A stretch of 34,476 nt of DNA from a virus, in the IMG/VR virus record IMGVR_UViG_3300031162_000925, positions 1 to 34,476 of that record; one strand, 5' to 3'. The notes beneath the pieces are model-generated. The model saw only the letters and a list, made by a program, of their open reading frames with translations. It had not been told where the DNA came from and searched no databases. Below are positions 840-30,071 of this stretch, one piece after another (position 1 is the first letter of the stretch; the number at the start of each line of letters is the position of its first letter). The position numbers and the translations under genes were made by a program.

Positions 840-1727
840 TCACCTCATCATCCTATGCATATGTTCCACAGGTGAAAACTTTGCGTGTTGCGCACCCATC
901 GTTGAGCGTGCCATAGCAACATATCTACTTGTCATAGACTGCGTGGTATGCCCCAATATCTTTTGTAACGAAAACGGATCACCACCATTTTCTATCCAGT
1001 TCAGCGCAAAGCTGTGGCGCATCGTGTGCGGTGACAAGCGCACACCTGCTAATTGCAACCGTTTTGCCACACGCTTAAACATCGACTGCACTGCCCTGCT
1101 TGATAGTGGTGTGCCCCGTTGCGTAATGAACAATGCTTCTGTGCTGGCATACCGGCTGCGCTGCTTCATATATTGCCACAACTCACGCTTTGTCGGTGAT
1201 GAAAATGGCACCCCTCTATCTTTTCCTCCCTTGCCGTGTACAAGTATCCACCTGTTCTCCATATCTACATCGCCCATACAGACCCCTGTAAGCTCTGAAA
1301 GTCTTATTCCAGTGTCGAATAGGGTCAGCATAAGAACGCGGTTCCTCAGCCCTGCAAACACGCTTGTGTTGAAGCTGTCGAACACAGCAGATGCCTGTGC
1401 TGGTGATAACGGTTGCACCTCTTTATCTTCTGCCACAATTCTCGGCAGTTTCGGCAGATCGGACACAAGCCCTTCAGCAAATACAAATCGCCACAACGTC
1501 TGTAATGCTCTCCAATGCGTGTGGATACTGTTTTGTGCAAGCTGCCTGTCCTGTAACGAAATGATATAGGGTTGTATCTGCTTAGGTGCATCTTGTAAAT
1601 TGCACCCATCGCCACAGAATTGCACAAATTTTTTTGTTGTGTCGCGGTAGAACAATAGCGTTTTCTCCGTTGCACCATTGACACGCCTGTCCATTATGAA
1701 GAGTTCATATGCTTCTAATATGGTCAT
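840..1727 (-). CDS. int: Tyrosine recombinase (phage integrase)
   Basis: Site-specific recombinase of 295 aa that should join the phage attachment site to the host chromosome. Residues 1-85 are the SAM-like core-binding domain; the rest is the catalytic domain. The active-site set is visible: Arg142 in DTGIRLSEL, Lys169 region in GKGGKDRGV, His234 and Arg237 in SPHTMRHSF, His260 in LGHTTQSMTSRYV and the nucleophile Tyr269. Length is typical of XerC/D-like phage integrases. The gene reads away from the tRNA-Pro fragment at 1805-1858. Its ribosome binding site (GGGAG, 1735-1740 region) lies inside a terminator-like hairpin, which suggests tight control of expression. Confidence 0.95.
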   Translation of the reverse strand: MTILEAYELFIMDRRVNGATEKTLLFYRDTTKKFVQFCGDGCNLQDAPKQIQPYIISLQDRQLAQNSIHTHWRALQTLWRFVFAEGLVSDLPKLPRIVAEDKEVQPLSPAQASAVFDSFNTSVFAGLRNRVLMLTLFDTGIRLSELTGVCMGDVDMENRWILVHGKGGKDRGVPFSSPTKRELWQYMKQRSRYASTEALFITQRGTPLSSRAVQSMFKRVAKRLQLAGVRLSPHTMRHSFALNWIENGGDPFSLQKILGHTTQSMTSRYVAMARSTMGAQHAKFSPVEHMHRMMR

Positions 1728-23593: not shown

Positions 23594-23791
23594 ATGGCAG
23601 ATTTAACAATTACACTGGAAGGTGCACGCGCAGCAGCCGTGGATTCTGAGGCAGAAAAAGAGGGTCTCACGGTGGCACAGGTGGCACAGGCAGCAGCAGA
23701 TCAACAGGCTGATATTTTGCGCAATGATCAAGTTAATGCTTGGTGGAACAGTAAGACACTGGAACAAAAAGAGGCCATTAAAAATTCTTGA
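23594..23791 (+). CDS. Small helical protein
   Basis: A 65-aa protein, MADLTITLEGARAAAVDSEA at its start, Ala/Gln-rich and helical. It ends with NAWWNSKTLEQKEAIKNS. Similar tiny proteins follow fibre genes in many phages, but I recognise no defined function. GGAG lies about 10 bases before ATG 23594. It is co-transcribed with the lysis genes that follow. Confidence 0.6.
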   Translation: MADLTITLEGARAAAVDSEAEKEGLTVAQVAQAAADQQADILRNDQVNAWWNSKTLEQKEAIKNS

Positions 23792-23808
23792 TACAACTGG
23801 AGAACATC

Positions 23809-23985
23809 GTGAACATCAAAACATTGCAAGACAAAATAGAACAAGCTGAAAAGTTAAAAGATCAATCGCTTGCAAATGCAAATGCTATGGCAGGTCAAAT
23901 AGCTGTATATAGAGAGTGGCTGGCAGACCTTGCCGCACAGGAAGTGGATACACCGTCAACGGTAACAGATCCACAGGAGGCATAG
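23809..23985 (+). CDS. Small coiled-coil protein
   Basis: A 58-aa helical protein with heptads (LQDKIEQAEKLKDQSLANA). GTG 23809 is favoured because GGAG lies 6 bases upstream; a TTG at 23788 would overlap the preceding gene. It ends with a Thr/Pro-rich tail. Its stop is directly followed by the next ATG. Similar coiled-coil proteins occur before lysis genes in other phages; the role is unknown. Confidence 0.6.
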   Translation: MNIKTLQDKIEQAEKLKDQSLANANAMAGQIAVYREWLADLAAQEVDTPSTVTDPQEA

Positions 23986-24180
23986 ATGTTTGGATTTATT
24001 GGCAAGATCAAGAAGGGCTTAGACCTGTATGCAAAGGTAAAAATTGCTATTGATGAAGGCAGAGATGTTGTGGAAGCTGTCAAGGTTATGGAAGAGAAGT
24101 ATAAAGATTTGGATGACGATGCCAAAGCTGCGTGGCGTGAGCTGCGTGAGTTTATCTATGCAATAAAGGCTATTGTGTAG
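23986..24180 (+). CDS. Small amphipathic helical protein
   Basis: A 64-aa protein with a short hydrophobic N-terminus (MFGFIGKIKKGLDLYAKVKI) and charged amphipathic helices (VVEAVKVMEEKYKDLDDDAK). The start directly follows the previous stop; AGGAGG lies within the end of that gene. The stop overlaps the next gene (TAGTG). A membrane-surface role is possible given the neighbours (MscS-like and holin-like genes), but no family is recognised. Confidence 0.6.
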   Translation: MFGFIGKIKKGLDLYAKVKIAIDEGRDVVEAVKVMEEKYKDLDDDAKAAWRELREFIYAIKAIV

Positions 24181-24554
24181 TGGATACATTGCCCATATCA
24201 CCACAGCAACAAGCCACGCTGTCGGTGCTCTTTGGTGAATGGTTCTACGTGATATTCTTTGCTTTCGTTGTAATGGTATTTAGAGATAGCATACAGAATA
24301 TTGTAGCAGGCGTGATGGTGTTCATAGGTAGCGACCTCAACCACGATGATGTTGTCATCTTAGACCAGCAACCTGCACGTATAGCACGATGTGGACTGTT
24401 GAAAACGACCTTTTACCTCTACTGCATAGACACAGAGAAAAAGTTTATAAATGGCACCAGAATACAGATAGCAAATACAAAGCTCTCTGAACATGCAATA
24501 GAGAAACCTCTCCCTATGCTACCGGACATATTGGTGGATCGCTACAAAGGATGA
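24180..24554 (+). CDS. Miniature MscS-like channel domain protein
   Basis: A 124-aa membrane protein. Residues 15-35 are a strong TM helix (LFGEWFYVIFFAFVVMVF). The next segment (SIQNIVAGVMVFIG) resembles the pore helix of MscS-family mechanosensitive channels, then DDVVILDQQPARIARCGLLK and RIQIANTKLS fit the MscS beta domain, whose family pattern includes a DWVEI-like strand and an IPNSKL motif. It has only one full TM helix before the pore-like helix, against three or more in MscS. GTG 24180 overlaps the previous stop. Next to endolysin and a holin-like gene, a role in lysis or envelope tension is plausible but inferred. Confidence 0.6.
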   Translation: MDTLPISPQQQATLSVLFGEWFYVIFFAFVVMVFRDSIQNIVAGVMVFIGSDLNHDDVVILDQQPARIARCGLLKTTFYLYCIDTEKKFINGTRIQIANTKLSEHAIEKPLPMLPDILVDRYKG

Positions 24555-24559
24555 TATAG

Positions 24560-24817
24560 ATGTCAAATGGTGATAGAAATGAGTTTGTCAAAGCAATATT
24601 GCCAAGTGTTGTGGCACTCATTGTAGGTGCATCATCTTCTTATATTTCATTTCATGTGACACTTACTTTAATGGCAGAAAAAGTAACGGTAATATCTGCA
24701 CGTCTTGATCGTATTGAGCGATACCACAGAGAGCACGTCAGCATATCTGGACATCCTGTTATGGATGAGCGTGTAAAAAATATTATGCGCGAGATAAACC
24801 TATTAAAAGGTAAATGA
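24560..24817 (+). CDS. Holin-like single-pass membrane protein
   Basis: An 85-aa protein with a short polar N-terminus, one TM segment (about 13-37, ILPSVVALIVGASSSYISF) and a charged helical C-terminus (LDRIERYHREHVSISGHPVM). Its stop overlaps the start of the endolysin gene (ATGA). A small one-TM protein in this position is a good holin candidate (class III-like), forming the membrane lesion that frees the endolysin. A spanin-like role is less likely because the C-terminal part is short. Confidence 0.65.
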   Translation: MSNGDRNEFVKAILPSVVALIVGASSSYISFHVTLTLMAEKVTVISARLDRIERYHREHVSISGHPVMDERVKNIMREINLLKGK

Positions 24818-25215
24818 AAATGGGTGATATGACAAAAAACTTTAGCCGTAGCGAGTTTGCTTGCCCCTGCTGTGGTGATGACAAGATGAGCCATTACGTT
24901 GTGAACGCTTTACAGCTCATCAGAGACGCTGTCGGTGCTCCCCTATCTATTGAGTCGGGTGTCCGATGTTCTGCCCACAACGAGGCTGTTGGAGGGGTTG
25001 AAAACTCTTCCCACGTTCCTGCTGACAAGGATGACGGTGAGGGCATTGTCGGTCATGCCGTAGACATCAAGTGCATAACATCTACTATGCGCTTTAAGAT
25101 CATCAAAGAGGCCACAAAATACTTTACGCGCATAGGCATCGGCAGAAACTTCATCCACATTGACAATGACACTGACAAACCGCAAGGTGTGTTGTGGCAC
25201 TATTACAAAACATGA
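24814..25215 (+). CDS. Endolysin, peptidase M15 family
   Basis: A 133-aa zinc peptidase expected to cut peptidoglycan cross-links at lysis. The fold pattern is clear: ESGVRCSAHNEAVGG (47-61), SSH with His67, GHAVDIK with Asp84, and FIHID with His115, giving the His-Asp-His zinc site of M15 D,D- or L,D-peptidases. An N-terminal CPCCG (17-21) is a common addition in phage members. No signal peptide is present, so release depends on a holin. Length is typical for single-domain M15 endolysins. It overlaps the holin-like gene by 4 bases and the following gene by 4. Confidence 0.88.
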   Translation: MKMGDMTKNFSRSEFACPCCGDDKMSHYVVNALQLIRDAVGAPLSIESGVRCSAHNEAVGGVENSSHVPADKDDGEGIVGHAVDIKCITSTMRFKIIKEATKYFTRIGIGRNFIHIDNDTDKPQGVLWHYYKT

Positions 25216-25484
25216 CATTCGGGCGTCGTGGCAACAGGTATCAGCACATATGTGCAATGCATTGGCATCTGGCAGAGATTGGTCAAGAGTTAGAGAAAAT
25301 TGCTGAGGACATAACAGATGGGCGAACACGCCAAAAGATCACCAATCGTGCGCAGAAGATCCAAAGTATTGCAAAGAAAGCAGAGGTGCAAGGTCAGAAG
25401 ATGGAAGATCGCTTGTACCTATATCGTGAGGCTATTGAGTCTCTCGGCTTTGAACGAAAGAAAAGGCGCAAACGGAGGCATTAA
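25212..25484 (+). CDS. Basic helical protein next to endolysin
   Basis: A 90-aa protein, MTFGRRGNRYQHICAMHWHL at its start, a helical middle (IGQELEKIAEDITDGRTRQK) and a strongly basic end (ERKKRRKRRH). ATG 25212 overlaps the endolysin stop (ATGA); a longer frame upstream overlaps endolysin more. No TM segment is visible, so it does not look like an Rz spanin. The basic tail may bind nucleic acid. Function unknown. Its stop overlaps the next start. Confidence 0.6.
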   Translation: MTFGRRGNRYQHICAMHWHLAEIGQELEKIAEDITDGRTRQKITNRAQKIQSIAKKAEVQGQKMEDRLYLYREAIESLGFERKKRRKRRH

Positions 25485-26359
25485 TGTTCAAGACTGAACG
25501 CATCAATGAGTATGTGTTACAGTTGGACGCAGGAAAGATTGGCGCAGTAGGATGGCAACATAAGACACTTGCTATGTTTGATCAGCACTTTGACAGTGAT
25601 AAGTGTCGCAAAGATTTATTTGAGGGTGGCTTACGCAAGGCAAAGTGCGAAGGGCACCCTGTTCTTTTTGGTGGCGATATGATGGATGTAATGCAGACAC
25701 GCAATGACCCTCGCAGAAGCAGGGGTGGCAACATGTCTGAAAACATGCGATACCTCAACCATCTCATTGATGAGCTTGCTGAGTTCTTGCTCCCCTATGC
25801 AGAAAACATCATTGCGTGGTTCGACGGCAACCACGAAACTGTTGTGCTCAAGAACTGTGACATAGACCTCGTAGAAGCAGTCATCGGCAAGTTACGCGAC
25901 AAGACCGGATACGCCATTAATCATATGAACTATTCTGGCTATATCATCTACAAGATGGACTCTAAATCATCACGCAACCCATACCCTAAAGTGTGGGTGC
26001 ATCACGGATATGGTGGTGCTGCCCCTGCTACTAAAGGTGTGAATCATGTCGTATACCGTGCAGGTGCCTATCCTGATGCCGATGTGTTCCTTACGGGTCA
26101 CACACACAACTGTTGGGCAATGCCACATGCACAAGAGAAGCTGACAGAGCAAGGGAACGTGTATAAGCGTGTTCAGTGGCACGCACAGATCCCCTCATTG
26201 AAAGATGAGACACGCAAAAAGAAAGGTTCTGGATGGGGCATTGAGAAAGGGTTTACACCGCAGGTGAATGGGTATGGATGGGTGAACTTTGAGCGTGTCC
26301 CGTGCAGAGGTAAGGCACACGTCGTGCCCACGCAACCTACGCTTGTATTGGAGCATTGA
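25484..26359 (+). CDS. Calcineurin-like metallophosphoesterase
   Basis: A 291-aa enzyme with the metallophosphoesterase motifs: GGDMMD (63-68), GNHE (115-118), HHG (173-175) and GHTH (205-208). The first motif (usually D-x-H) is less clear; Asp33 and His35 in FDQHFD are candidates. Such enzymes hydrolyse phosphomono- or diesters with two metals. In phages they are thought to act on nucleotides, DNA ends or RNA; the substrate here is unknown. It is embedded between the endolysin and a lipoprotein, an unusual neighbourhood. The start overlaps the upstream stop (TAATG). Confidence 0.8.
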   Translation: MFKTERINEYVLQLDAGKIGAVGWQHKTLAMFDQHFDSDKCRKDLFEGGLRKAKCEGHPVLFGGDMMDVMQTRNDPRRSRGGNMSENMRYLNHLIDELAEFLLPYAENIIAWFDGNHETVVLKNCDIDLVEAVIGKLRDKTGYAINHMNYSGYIIYKMDSKSSRNPYPKVWVHHGYGGAAPATKGVNHVVYRAGAYPDADVFLTGHTHNCWAMPHAQEKLTEQGNVYKRVQWHAQIPSLKDETRKKKGSGWGIEKGFTPQVNGYGWVNFERVPCRGKAHVVPTQPTLVLEH

Positions 26360-26363
26360 TACG

Positions 26364-26687
26364 ATGAGAACAATAAGACTTGCACCCTTACTGCTAATGC
26401 TTGCCTGTGCATTACCGACAAAGCCTGTTGATGAACGGTTGCTCGGTGAGTGGGTATCGGGACAGGTAGAACTGTCTATATATGAAGATCGCACCATCAT
26501 CTCTGTTGACAAGTCCGGTGAATGGCGTGGTCAGTGGGCAAGAGATCGTGCAGATGTGCTCACGGCCCTCTTTTACAGTTTGGACGGTGAACAGTTAGAC
26601 GCACCAGAAGTGATCACAGCACCCTACCGCTTTGAAGGCGATGTGCTGGTGTGGGGCACACGACCTTATCAGAGGATGAATAAATGA
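26364..26687 (+). CDS. Predicted lipoprotein (small, lipocalin-like)
   Basis: A 107-aa protein starting MRTIRLAPLLLMLACALPTK: basic N-terminus, hydrophobic core and a Cys at about 15 in MLAC, a slightly non-ideal lipobox. The mature part (LLGEWVSGQVELSIYEDRTI and onwards) looks like a small beta-barrel of the kind that evaluates as lipocalin-like. ATG 26364 is used; an in-frame start upstream lies inside the phosphoesterase gene. It may be an outer-membrane lipoprotein made late, perhaps in lysis or superinfection exclusion. The lipid anchor suggests a Gram-negative host. It overlaps the next gene. Confidence 0.65.
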   Translation: MRTIRLAPLLLMLACALPTKPVDERLLGEWVSGQVELSIYEDRTIISVDKSGEWRGQWARDRADVLTALFYSLDGEQLDAPEVITAPYRFEGDVLVWGTRPYQRMNK

Positions 26688-27082
26688 AATTTGATGACAA
26701 AGTAGTTGATATGCTTGTAGAGCGATTTACAGCGCGTCTGTGGCTCGGAAAGTGGGAGGTGAACTGGTATTGGCAGAACGATACAGAAGTGGATGTGTAT
26801 GGCTCTGTGACCCCTGTGGACAATCGTGAGCGTGCCACCATAGAACTGTCAGTGACAATACCCTCATTCGATGAGCTAAGGCGCACTATAGCACACGAAC
26901 TTGCCCACCTGTTCATGTGGAATCAACTTATCATCGTCGATGCTTTGGAGTCATCAGTAAATGAGGGTGCGTGGGCATATTTTCGGCAGATATACAAAGA
27001 TGCCCACGAGAAAGACGTGGACACCCTTGCAAAGATGCTCTGTGAACTGTGTGATGATAAAGACTTAATAGCTGTCTCTTAA
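26684..27082 (+). CDS. Zinc metallopeptidase-like protein (HExxH)
   Basis: A 132-aa protein with IAHELAHLF (69-77), the HExxH zinc site of gluzincin and SprT-like peptidases. A downstream Glu (NEGAWAYFRQI, about 93-98) may be the third ligand. The fold is that of small phage zincins whose substrate is unknown; they may process virion or host proteins. No signal peptide is seen, so it should act in the cytoplasm. ATG 26684 overlaps the lipoprotein stop (ATGA). It is the last gene of the rightward late operon. Confidence 0.75.
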   Translation: MKFDDKVVDMLVERFTARLWLGKWEVNWYWQNDTEVDVYGSVTPVDNRERATIELSVTIPSFDELRRTIAHELAHLFMWNQLIIVDALESSVNEGAWAYFRQIYKDAHEKDVDTLAKMLCELCDDKDLIAVS

Positions 27083-29087: not shown

Positions 29088-29645
29088 TTATAATTCAGGG
29101 TTTTCGCTATCAGGATCACCCATAACCACACAGAGCATAGCTGTTCGCCATTCGTCGAAAGCACTTTCCATAGCCAAACCCTTTAGCTCGTCAGAGGTTA
29201 CTTTTTCAAATAGACCATTCTCTGCGTCCGCTTCAATCTCTTGAAGTTTTGGGAGATAAAATCCCTCAAAAAAGTCGCCCAAATCTCCAATGCTAAACGG
29301 CAATTTTTCTTCTCGCCCCTCGTCCACAATACCGTTTTCTTCGTCGTATTTTTTCCACTTATGATCCCATACGACCACATCTTTCGCTAAGTCAGGATTA
29401 CACGTTGAGAACGCAAACCCCATCGCACCATCCCGACACGCTATTGTGTGCGATCTGTCTGATTGATGGGAGTCTATACGAAGAACGAGATATTCTGCTC
29501 TTGGGTCAGTCTGAGAACCATTAGATTTGCTCACAATATATTTTCCATACAGCCCACTATTCGGGTGCTGTTGGATGGTAAATTCTTTTGCGTCTTTTCC
29601 TAATTTCTTTTGCAATGCAGATGGGTTTTCAAGTTCGTTTTGCAT
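29088..29645 (-). CDS. Unknown protein, possible passenger of the insertion element
   Basis: A 185-aa soluble protein, not recognised. The start (MQNELENPSALQKKLGKDAK) is polar; the middle has beta-like segments (LYGKYIVSKSNG, AEYLVLRID, GAMGFAFSTCN); the end is acidic and helical. ATG 29645 has AAAGGA upstream and diverges from the transposase start 30 bases away. It lies inside the putative hairpin-bounded element and on the same strand as the phage operon. Whether it is cargo or a native phage gene decides the element size. Cargo in IS200/IS605 elements is usually tnpB or iscB, which this is not. Confidence 0.6.
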   Translation of the reverse strand: MQNELENPSALQKKLGKDAKEFTIQQHPNSGLYGKYIVSKSNGSQTDPRAEYLVLRIDSHQSDRSHTIACRDGAMGFAFSTCNPDLAKDVVVWDHKWKKYDEENGIVDEGREEKLPFSIGDLGDFFEGFYLPKLQEIEADAENGLFEKVTSDELKGLAMESAFDEWRTAMLCVVMGDPDSENPEL

Positions 29646-29675
29646 TTAATAAATCCTTTCGTAAGGAGTTGGCTT

Positions 29676-30071
29676 GTGGGCAAATACAACACAAGTAGAG
29701 GAAGTGTTTTTACTTTGCAATACCACATTGTCTGGTGCCCCAAATACAGGCGAAAAATCTTAAAAGGTGAATACGCCGAAACACTCAAAGTGTTGCTCTA
29801 TAAAAAAGCAGAACAGCTAAATATCAGCATTGAAGCACTCGAAATTATGCCCGATCACGTTCACCTATTCGTGTCGGTTCGGCCTACTGATGACCCTGCC
29901 AGATTGGTAAACCATTTCAAAGGTTATACGTCCTACTGGATGCGTCGGAAGCACTTGGGTTTGAGTAAACGATTCCGAGCACTTTGGTCTCCGAGTTACT
30001 ACGTCGGCTCGGTGGGGCACGTTACGGCTGAGACGGTGAAAAAGTATATCGCCAACCAAACCAACAAGTAG
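29676..30071 (+). CDS. tnpA: IS200/IS605 family transposase TnpA (Y1 HUH)
   Basis: A 131-aa single-strand transposase. The N-terminus LQYHIVWCPKYRRKIL is the family signature, HVH of the HUH metal site lies in IMPDHVHLFV, and the catalytic Tyr is in TVKKYIANQ near the C-terminus. It cuts and joins single-stranded DNA at subterminal hairpins during replication. GTG 29676 has AAGGAG 7 bases upstream; a frame extending to 29610 lacks support. TCCTT/AAGGA (29654-29667) can fold over that ribosome binding site, as known for IS200. It is slightly shorter than usual but appears intact. Confidence 0.92.
   Translation: MGKYNTSRGSVFTLQYHIVWCPKYRRKILKGEYAETLKVLLYKKAEQLNISIEALEIMPDHVHLFVSVRPTDDPARLVNHFKGYTSYWMRRKHLGLSKRFRALWSPSYYVGSVGHVTAETVKKYIANQTNK

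Follow-up and report, generated by a model that had tools for sequence, protein, structure and literature searches.

The closest described relatives of the phage proteins reported here are the E. coli channels MscS and YnaI (PF00924), which share with them a TM3b helix with an invariant N and G, the strands of the beta-domain, a PN..L motif and, as judged by Foldseek, the fold. The E. coli proteins are, however, 286–343 aa long and have both a TM1-TM2 paddle and a C-terminal alpha/beta cage, whereas the phage-encoded proteins have about 100–124 aa and neither of these parts. Reduced members of the family have been described from eukaryotes. TcMscS of Trypanosoma cruzi (165 aa) forms heptamers that are opened by pressure and have a conductance of 478 pS (PMC12334622), and like the phage proteins it is a reduced core that ends past the beta-domain and has no cage (PMC12334622). 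It differs from them in having TM2 as well as TM3 and proven channel activity (PMC12334622), whereas the phage proteins have one TM segment and are known from sequence. The microsporidian MscS2, a eukaryotic protein of bacterial derivation and unknown function, is a heptamer of subunits reduced to a TM3-like helix and the beta-domain (PMC11262690); we liken the phage proteins to it in these two elements by its published description rather than by alignment, and unlike them it has no link to phages or lysis (PMC11262690).

Among viruses, a 2018 survey of transport genes lists mechanosensitive channels from large DNA viruses only (PMC6163359). These are likewise virus-encoded homologues of MscS- or MscL-type channels, but the hosts are eukaryotic, the MscS-like member is 261 aa long with three TMs, and there is no lysis cassette (PMC6163359). 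With phage holins and pinholins the proteins described here share that they are small membrane proteins encoded beside an endolysin, which applies to the stretch of DNA analysed here and to subfamily B, at a distance of 1.1 kb to subfamily C, and not to subfamilies A and A2 (defined below); they differ in that our stretch encodes a separate holin-like protein and no SAR endolysin partner was seen. We know of no holin with a beta-domain. A phage MscS-like lysis component was not found in the literature searched, the coverage of which stops short of preprints and most subscription papers.

The DNA analysed here (the window) comprises the full 34,476 bases of an IMG/VR virus record, which may itself be a fragment. 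It belongs to a tailed phage that encodes a tyrosine integrase and a terminase. Among the matches listed for the terminase in cultured phages, Pseudanabaena phage Pam1 is the best, with 51% identity. The features discussed below are collected in Table 1. Adjoining the integrase gene, a short ORF (1775–1903) contains RRPEVQILSPRP in its translation, a type of string that we take to be often the translated 3′-end of a tRNA; this is a possible attachment site, and ARAGORN found no tRNA. The phage genome also holds an ORF for an IS200-type Y1 transposase (29610–30071; PF01797, E = 7.1e-39), and at the end of the contig (34261–34476) an array of 18 copies of a 12-base, ATTGCTACTCAA-like repeat, which is in frame with a minus-strand ORF that begins with repeated SNL-type residues.

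Table 1. Positions in the window of the mini-MscS gene, its segments and the neighbouring genes.
Feature	Position	Strand	Basis
Integrase	840–1727		
64-aa charged, helical-looking protein	23986–24180	+	Sequence; stop overlaps mini-MscS start by one base
Mini-MscS protein, 124 aa, one TM helix and MscS beta-domain	24180–24554	+	Profile, Foldseek, Pfam
TM3a-like hydrophobic segment, residues 17–33	24228–24278	+	Mean Kyte-Doolittle 2.16; within model helix 8–50
TM3b pore-helix-like segment RDSIQNIVAGVMVFIG, residues 35–50	24282–24329	+	Alignments
Beta-domain, residues 57–108	24348–24503	+	Model strands and helix; C-terminal-only profile E = 2.7e-6
85-aa holin-like protein, one N-terminal TM and coiled-coil-like tail	24560–24817	+	PHROG holin E = 0.051, weak
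M15 peptidase endolysin	24814–25215	+	PF08291 E = 2.9e-14; PHROG 894 endolysin E = 2.4e-27
291-aa protein, phosphoesterase-like motifs GGD, GNHE, GHTH	25484–26359	+	Motifs by eye

The mini-MscS gene starts with a GTG, the first base of which is the last base of the upstream stop codon (taGTG). An earlier note on this DNA had read the protein as one TM helix followed by a pore-helix-like segment and a beta-domain, with most of the TM helices of the MscS family missing, and both the Kyte-Doolittle profile and the alignments confirm this description. There is a single hydrophobic segment; RDSIQNIVAGVMVFIGSDLNHDDVVIL, which follows it, aligns with EcMscS, and NGTRIQIANTKL, which comes next, aligns with the DGKIIVIPNGKI strand. 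The TM1-TM2 paddle of typical members is absent from the mini proteins, as their single hydrophobic segment indicates, and so is the C-terminal alpha/beta cage, as they stop shortly past the beta-domain. The paddle is not strictly required for membership, since it is also reduced in TcMscS and MscS2. In the window protein the beta-domain carries a short insertion relative to its relatives, and the TM3a segment lacks, in sequence alignment, the Gly/Ala pattern of canonical TM3a.

The best Pfam match of the window protein among 24,736 models is MS_channel_2nd (PF00924; E = 0.0075), and at 16.8 bits the protein alone falls under the curated cut-off of 20.2 bits. This match missed the N..L strand because of the insertion; the alignment with bacterial-type MscS spans TM3b and the beta-domain including that strand, at an identity of only about 15–21% to the bacterial-type sequences aligned, and a profile made from nine bacterial-type MscS sequences had too little power to give the window protein a rank. 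A second profile was made from 13 phage homologues, with the window protein left out; the window protein scores 62.2 bits against it (E = 1.3e-17), compared with 12.8 bits for the best of 5000 shuffles of the whole protein. Since the pattern used to find the homologues was derived from the window protein, the match in the columns of that pattern is partly circular; residues 62–124, whose columns lie outside it, were scored separately and reach 25.3 bits (E = 2.7e-6), the best of 5000 shuffles being 9.4 bits. Plain tblastn also connects the window protein to subfamilies A, A2 and C, with E-values down to 4.5e-13. The Pfam MscS model matches all 12 aligned family members with an E of 1 or better, and its cut-off is passed in 8 of 13 records, one of the eight being a 178-aa protein with several TM segments; most of the mini records pass or approach it (up to 30.2 bits). 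When the PDB is searched with the family profile, chains of MscS, YnaI, MscK, MscM, MSL1 and TcMscS are retrieved, and nearly all of the 36 rows belong to the MscS family, with individually weak E-values from 0.02 upwards. On these alignments we assign the window protein to the MscS superfamily, by homology over TM3b and the beta-domain.

The predicted structure points the same way. An initial AlphaFold model that used no homologues had a pLDDT of 49.8 and yielded no structure matches of use. A model made with an alignment of the phage homologues only has moderate confidence (pLDDT 63) and shows a long helix (residues 8–50), in which the kink is resolved with low confidence, strands at 58–61, 64–71, 75–80 and 93–98, and a short helix at 99–104. 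In a Foldseek search of the PDB with this model, all of the 50 matches listed belong to the MscS family with a probability of 1.00, the best being a YnaI-MscS chimera (E = 4.9e-4), with open MscS at E = 9.0e-4 and the T. cruzi protein at E = 0.014. The structural match to the MscS pore helix and beta-domain, which the earlier note had set as a test, was thus found among the matches listed, and together with the 62.2-bit profile match it bears out the proposed MscS relationship. The agreement of the model is with the MscS fold of a kinked pore helix and a five-stranded beta-domain; it is at fold level and does not imply a precise model.

The homologues were found by turning the window motif into a degenerate DNA pattern with which viral contigs were scanned, strictly and then more loosely. 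The strict pattern gave 10 stretches, namely nine with single-TM proteins (one of them truncated where its stretch ends) and one with the 178-aa protein. With the looser pattern 54 stretches were retrieved; four additional mini proteins and five MscS genes of full length were among them, the remainder being chance-like. Beyond the window we thus have 13 single-TM homologues in viral contigs, 99–115 aa long where complete. They fall into subfamilies A (L030, L034–L037), A2 (L045) and C (L043, L060, L068), which form one group with the window protein (98% ultrafast bootstrap), and the more distant subfamily B (L029, L032, L033, L038), which may or may not have been reduced independently. The 13 loci represent fewer lineages, because several records are near-duplicates (L030/L035/L036, L060/L068 and L032/L033/L038). 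Invariant alignment columns include N40, G44, G50, D57, T76, N99 and L102 of the window protein, and a C-terminal EK.L motif is common to A, A2, C and the window. The relatives of the window gene are under purifying selection, with dN/dS of 0.016, 0.021 and 0.023 in the three pairs with measurable dS; in three more diverged pairs dS is saturated, and these values cover the relatives only, the window gene having no close relative. The contig L031 (5950–6483, minus strand) encodes the 178-aa MscS-family protein with several TM segments (PF00924, 42.9 bits), which ends past the beta-domain and, in a viral contig of 41 kb, is a less extreme reduced form.

Searches elsewhere were negative. No mini-MscS was found by tblastn in the cultured phages of INPHARED or the plasmids of PLSDB, nor was one seen in five cultured phages related by terminase or virion protein or in scans of bacterial genome contigs, where the patterns used were weak. 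Peptide-pattern scans with the single window protein or with a two-sequence profile, a method that needs near-exact peptides, likewise gave no relative. The MscS matches in INPHARED were rejected as phage genes, as they are of the bacterial type and their records seem to derive from hosts; beside the two that are annotated lie genes of cellular character, for example rsmE or those for ordinary membrane proteins. A PF00924 match in L019 covers just 29 profile positions and was dismissed as chance.

The position in a lysis cassette claimed for the gene holds: the 64-aa charged protein is encoded upstream, and directly downstream follow the holin-like gene and then the M15 endolysin gene. For the 64-aa protein, Pfam and PHROG gave no family match better than E = 0.015. 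The idea that homologues lie beside endolysin genes stood only in part. The mini-MscS gene of subfamily B has a 3-TM holin-like gene upstream and overlaps with the gene for a Phage_lysozyme (E = 3.4e-35); for that of subfamily C, an amidase endolysin with a peptidoglycan-binding domain is encoded 1.1 kb upstream. The endolysins by the window, B and C genes are of three different classes. Subfamily A, on the other hand, adjoins gp32/UvsX-like genes (named by eye) or is found near chaperonin and nuclease genes, A2 adjoins Hsp20 and DnaK-like genes, and no endolysin was recognised near the mini-MscS genes of either. Rough arithmetic with a chance of ~6% per lineage gives an expectation of well under 1% for three of six lineages to be near an endolysin, the six being a non-random sample. 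Distant common ancestry of the window phage and those of subfamily B is possible, as both match Microcystis phage Mwe-JY13. Taken together, the evidence supports the lysis link in part. The only match obtained with PADLOC was weak (E = 0.012), which leaves a defence role unsupported. We also observed that the stress genes around the mini-MscS gene in L098 (8217–17072) are those for a ClpP-like protease, Hsp20, a DnaK-like protein (by sequence) and SpoVR.

Two sister contigs (L002 and L003) were located through the 291-aa protein of the 3′ flank, which is 82–85% identical in both, has no Pfam match and is outside the mini-MscS system. Where the window (positions 23600–25484) has the mini-MscS protein, the holin-like protein and the endolysin, these contigs encode other proteins throughout, the endolysin there belonging to PHROG 465 and that of the window to PHROG 894. 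As the entire segment is swapped next to a flank of such high identity, the lysis segment behaves as one module. The mini-MscS position is occupied in the sister phages by a 50-aa one-TM protein (L003:5071–5220) that has a match in PHROG 402, a family of unknown function (E = 1.3e-5), and contains the motif KLTPTKYDDIL. This motif resembles, possibly by chance, a string in the TM1-TM2 loop of the L031 MscS-like protein (RTPTKLDDDL), and that the 50-aa protein (TPTKYDDIL) would be an MscS TM1-TM2 fragment is unproven. Beyond the flank, a SprT-like metalloprotease-type ORF (26684–27082; PF10263 E = 7.9e-4, under the cut-off) has a 68% identical counterpart in L002.

The least probable explanation, which we consider very improbable, is that the gene is a functionless, decaying fragment of a captured host mscS gene. 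It could account for the loss of everything in a normal MscS except the TM3 and beta-domain core and for the window copy being without a close relative in the collections searched, but the reduced form recurs in 14 records with intact frames and tight gene junctions, the EK.L motif is common to A, A2, C and the window, and for the family as a whole decay is largely refuted by the dN/dS of about 0.02 in three pairs of relatives. A poison subunit, which would enter the MscS heptamers of the host, disable or jam them and thereby block pressure relief at lysis, is a more attractive idea, as TM3b and the beta-domain, which form subunit contacts in MscS, are what has been kept while the rest is absent. 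We nevertheless find it improbable, given the low identity to the bacterial-type sequences aligned and the stable maintenance of the family as its own clade or clades. Hardly better is the case for a holin or pinholin, whose pore would itself kill the membrane and trigger lysis. The gene does encode a small membrane protein and is directly followed by holin-like and endolysin genes, and a pinholin-like pore was among the functions proposed in the earlier note. Pinholins, however, work with SAR endolysins, and when the N-termini were read by eye no TM or signal segment was seen in the window M15 endolysin and no TM or SAR segment in the neighbouring M15, lysozyme and amidase sequences. A pinholin role is disfavoured by this lack of an N-terminal membrane anchor, and also by the separate holin-like proteins encoded in the window and subfamily B; in addition, a pore of MscS size would presumably not pass a 15-kDa enzyme.

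The main rival to a role in lysis is a general osmotic valve, that is, an accessory channel against osmotic or envelope stress that keeps the infected cell intact and has no specific part in lysis, its proximity to lysis genes reflecting a late operon that collects accessory genes. The surroundings of A (chaperonin and nuclease, or gp32/UvsX-like genes) and A2 (Hsp20 and DnaK-like genes) favour it, and we regard it as a serious competitor, if still a doubtful one: in three phage types the gene is beside or near endolysins of three different classes, and the sister contigs swap the whole segment together. A further reading, in which some phages have recruited a one-helix MscS core as a tension-gated lysis component that serves as an osmotic valve in larger phages, appears rather unlikely to us. 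Such a channel would open once the inner membrane comes under strain from holin action or the cutting of the wall, and the release of ions would then set the timing or manner of the cell burst.

The reading we favor, with a probability of roughly 0.4, is that the gene encodes a minimal phage MscS-family subunit that forms a probably heptameric pore and modulates lysis together with the holin-like protein and the endolysin. MscS homology, fold-level similarity and, in the relatives, purifying selection are the established part of it. The subunit would consist of one helix at the TM3a position, the TM3b pore helix and a cytoplasmic beta-domain, and by analogy with the reduced eukaryotic MscS proteins the subunits would assemble into a small, probably heptameric and poorly selective pore in the inner membrane. 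Less certainly, the protein would be co-expressed with the holin-like protein and the endolysin in the window phage, and late in infection the pore in the strained membrane would pass ions and small solutes and thereby modulate lysis, either preventing premature rupture or helping membrane depolarisation. The pore would not itself be the route for endolysin release. Modulation of membrane tension, potential or permeability around lysis is the most likely role, because a pinholin is made unlikely by the lack of a SAR segment and by the exclusion of endolysins from an MscS-sized pore. Against our favored reading stands that A and A2 are not adjacent to a recognised endolysin. The minimal pore is also spoken against by the absence of the canonical TM3a Gly/Ala pattern in the window protein, and by E. 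coli MscS variants without both C-terminal cage domains, which, as cited within PMC11262690, reportedly fail to insert in membranes.

As far as the searched literature shows, the phage mini-MscS family is undescribed, and with cores of about 100–124 aa its members would be among the smallest MscS homologues known. That relatives of this size turn up in uncultured phages of several kinds, in some of them next to an endolysin gene, points to a reduced membrane channel of their own in at least some phages. It raises the questions of what minimum size still allows an MscS channel to gate, and of whether phages sense or control membrane tension at lysis.
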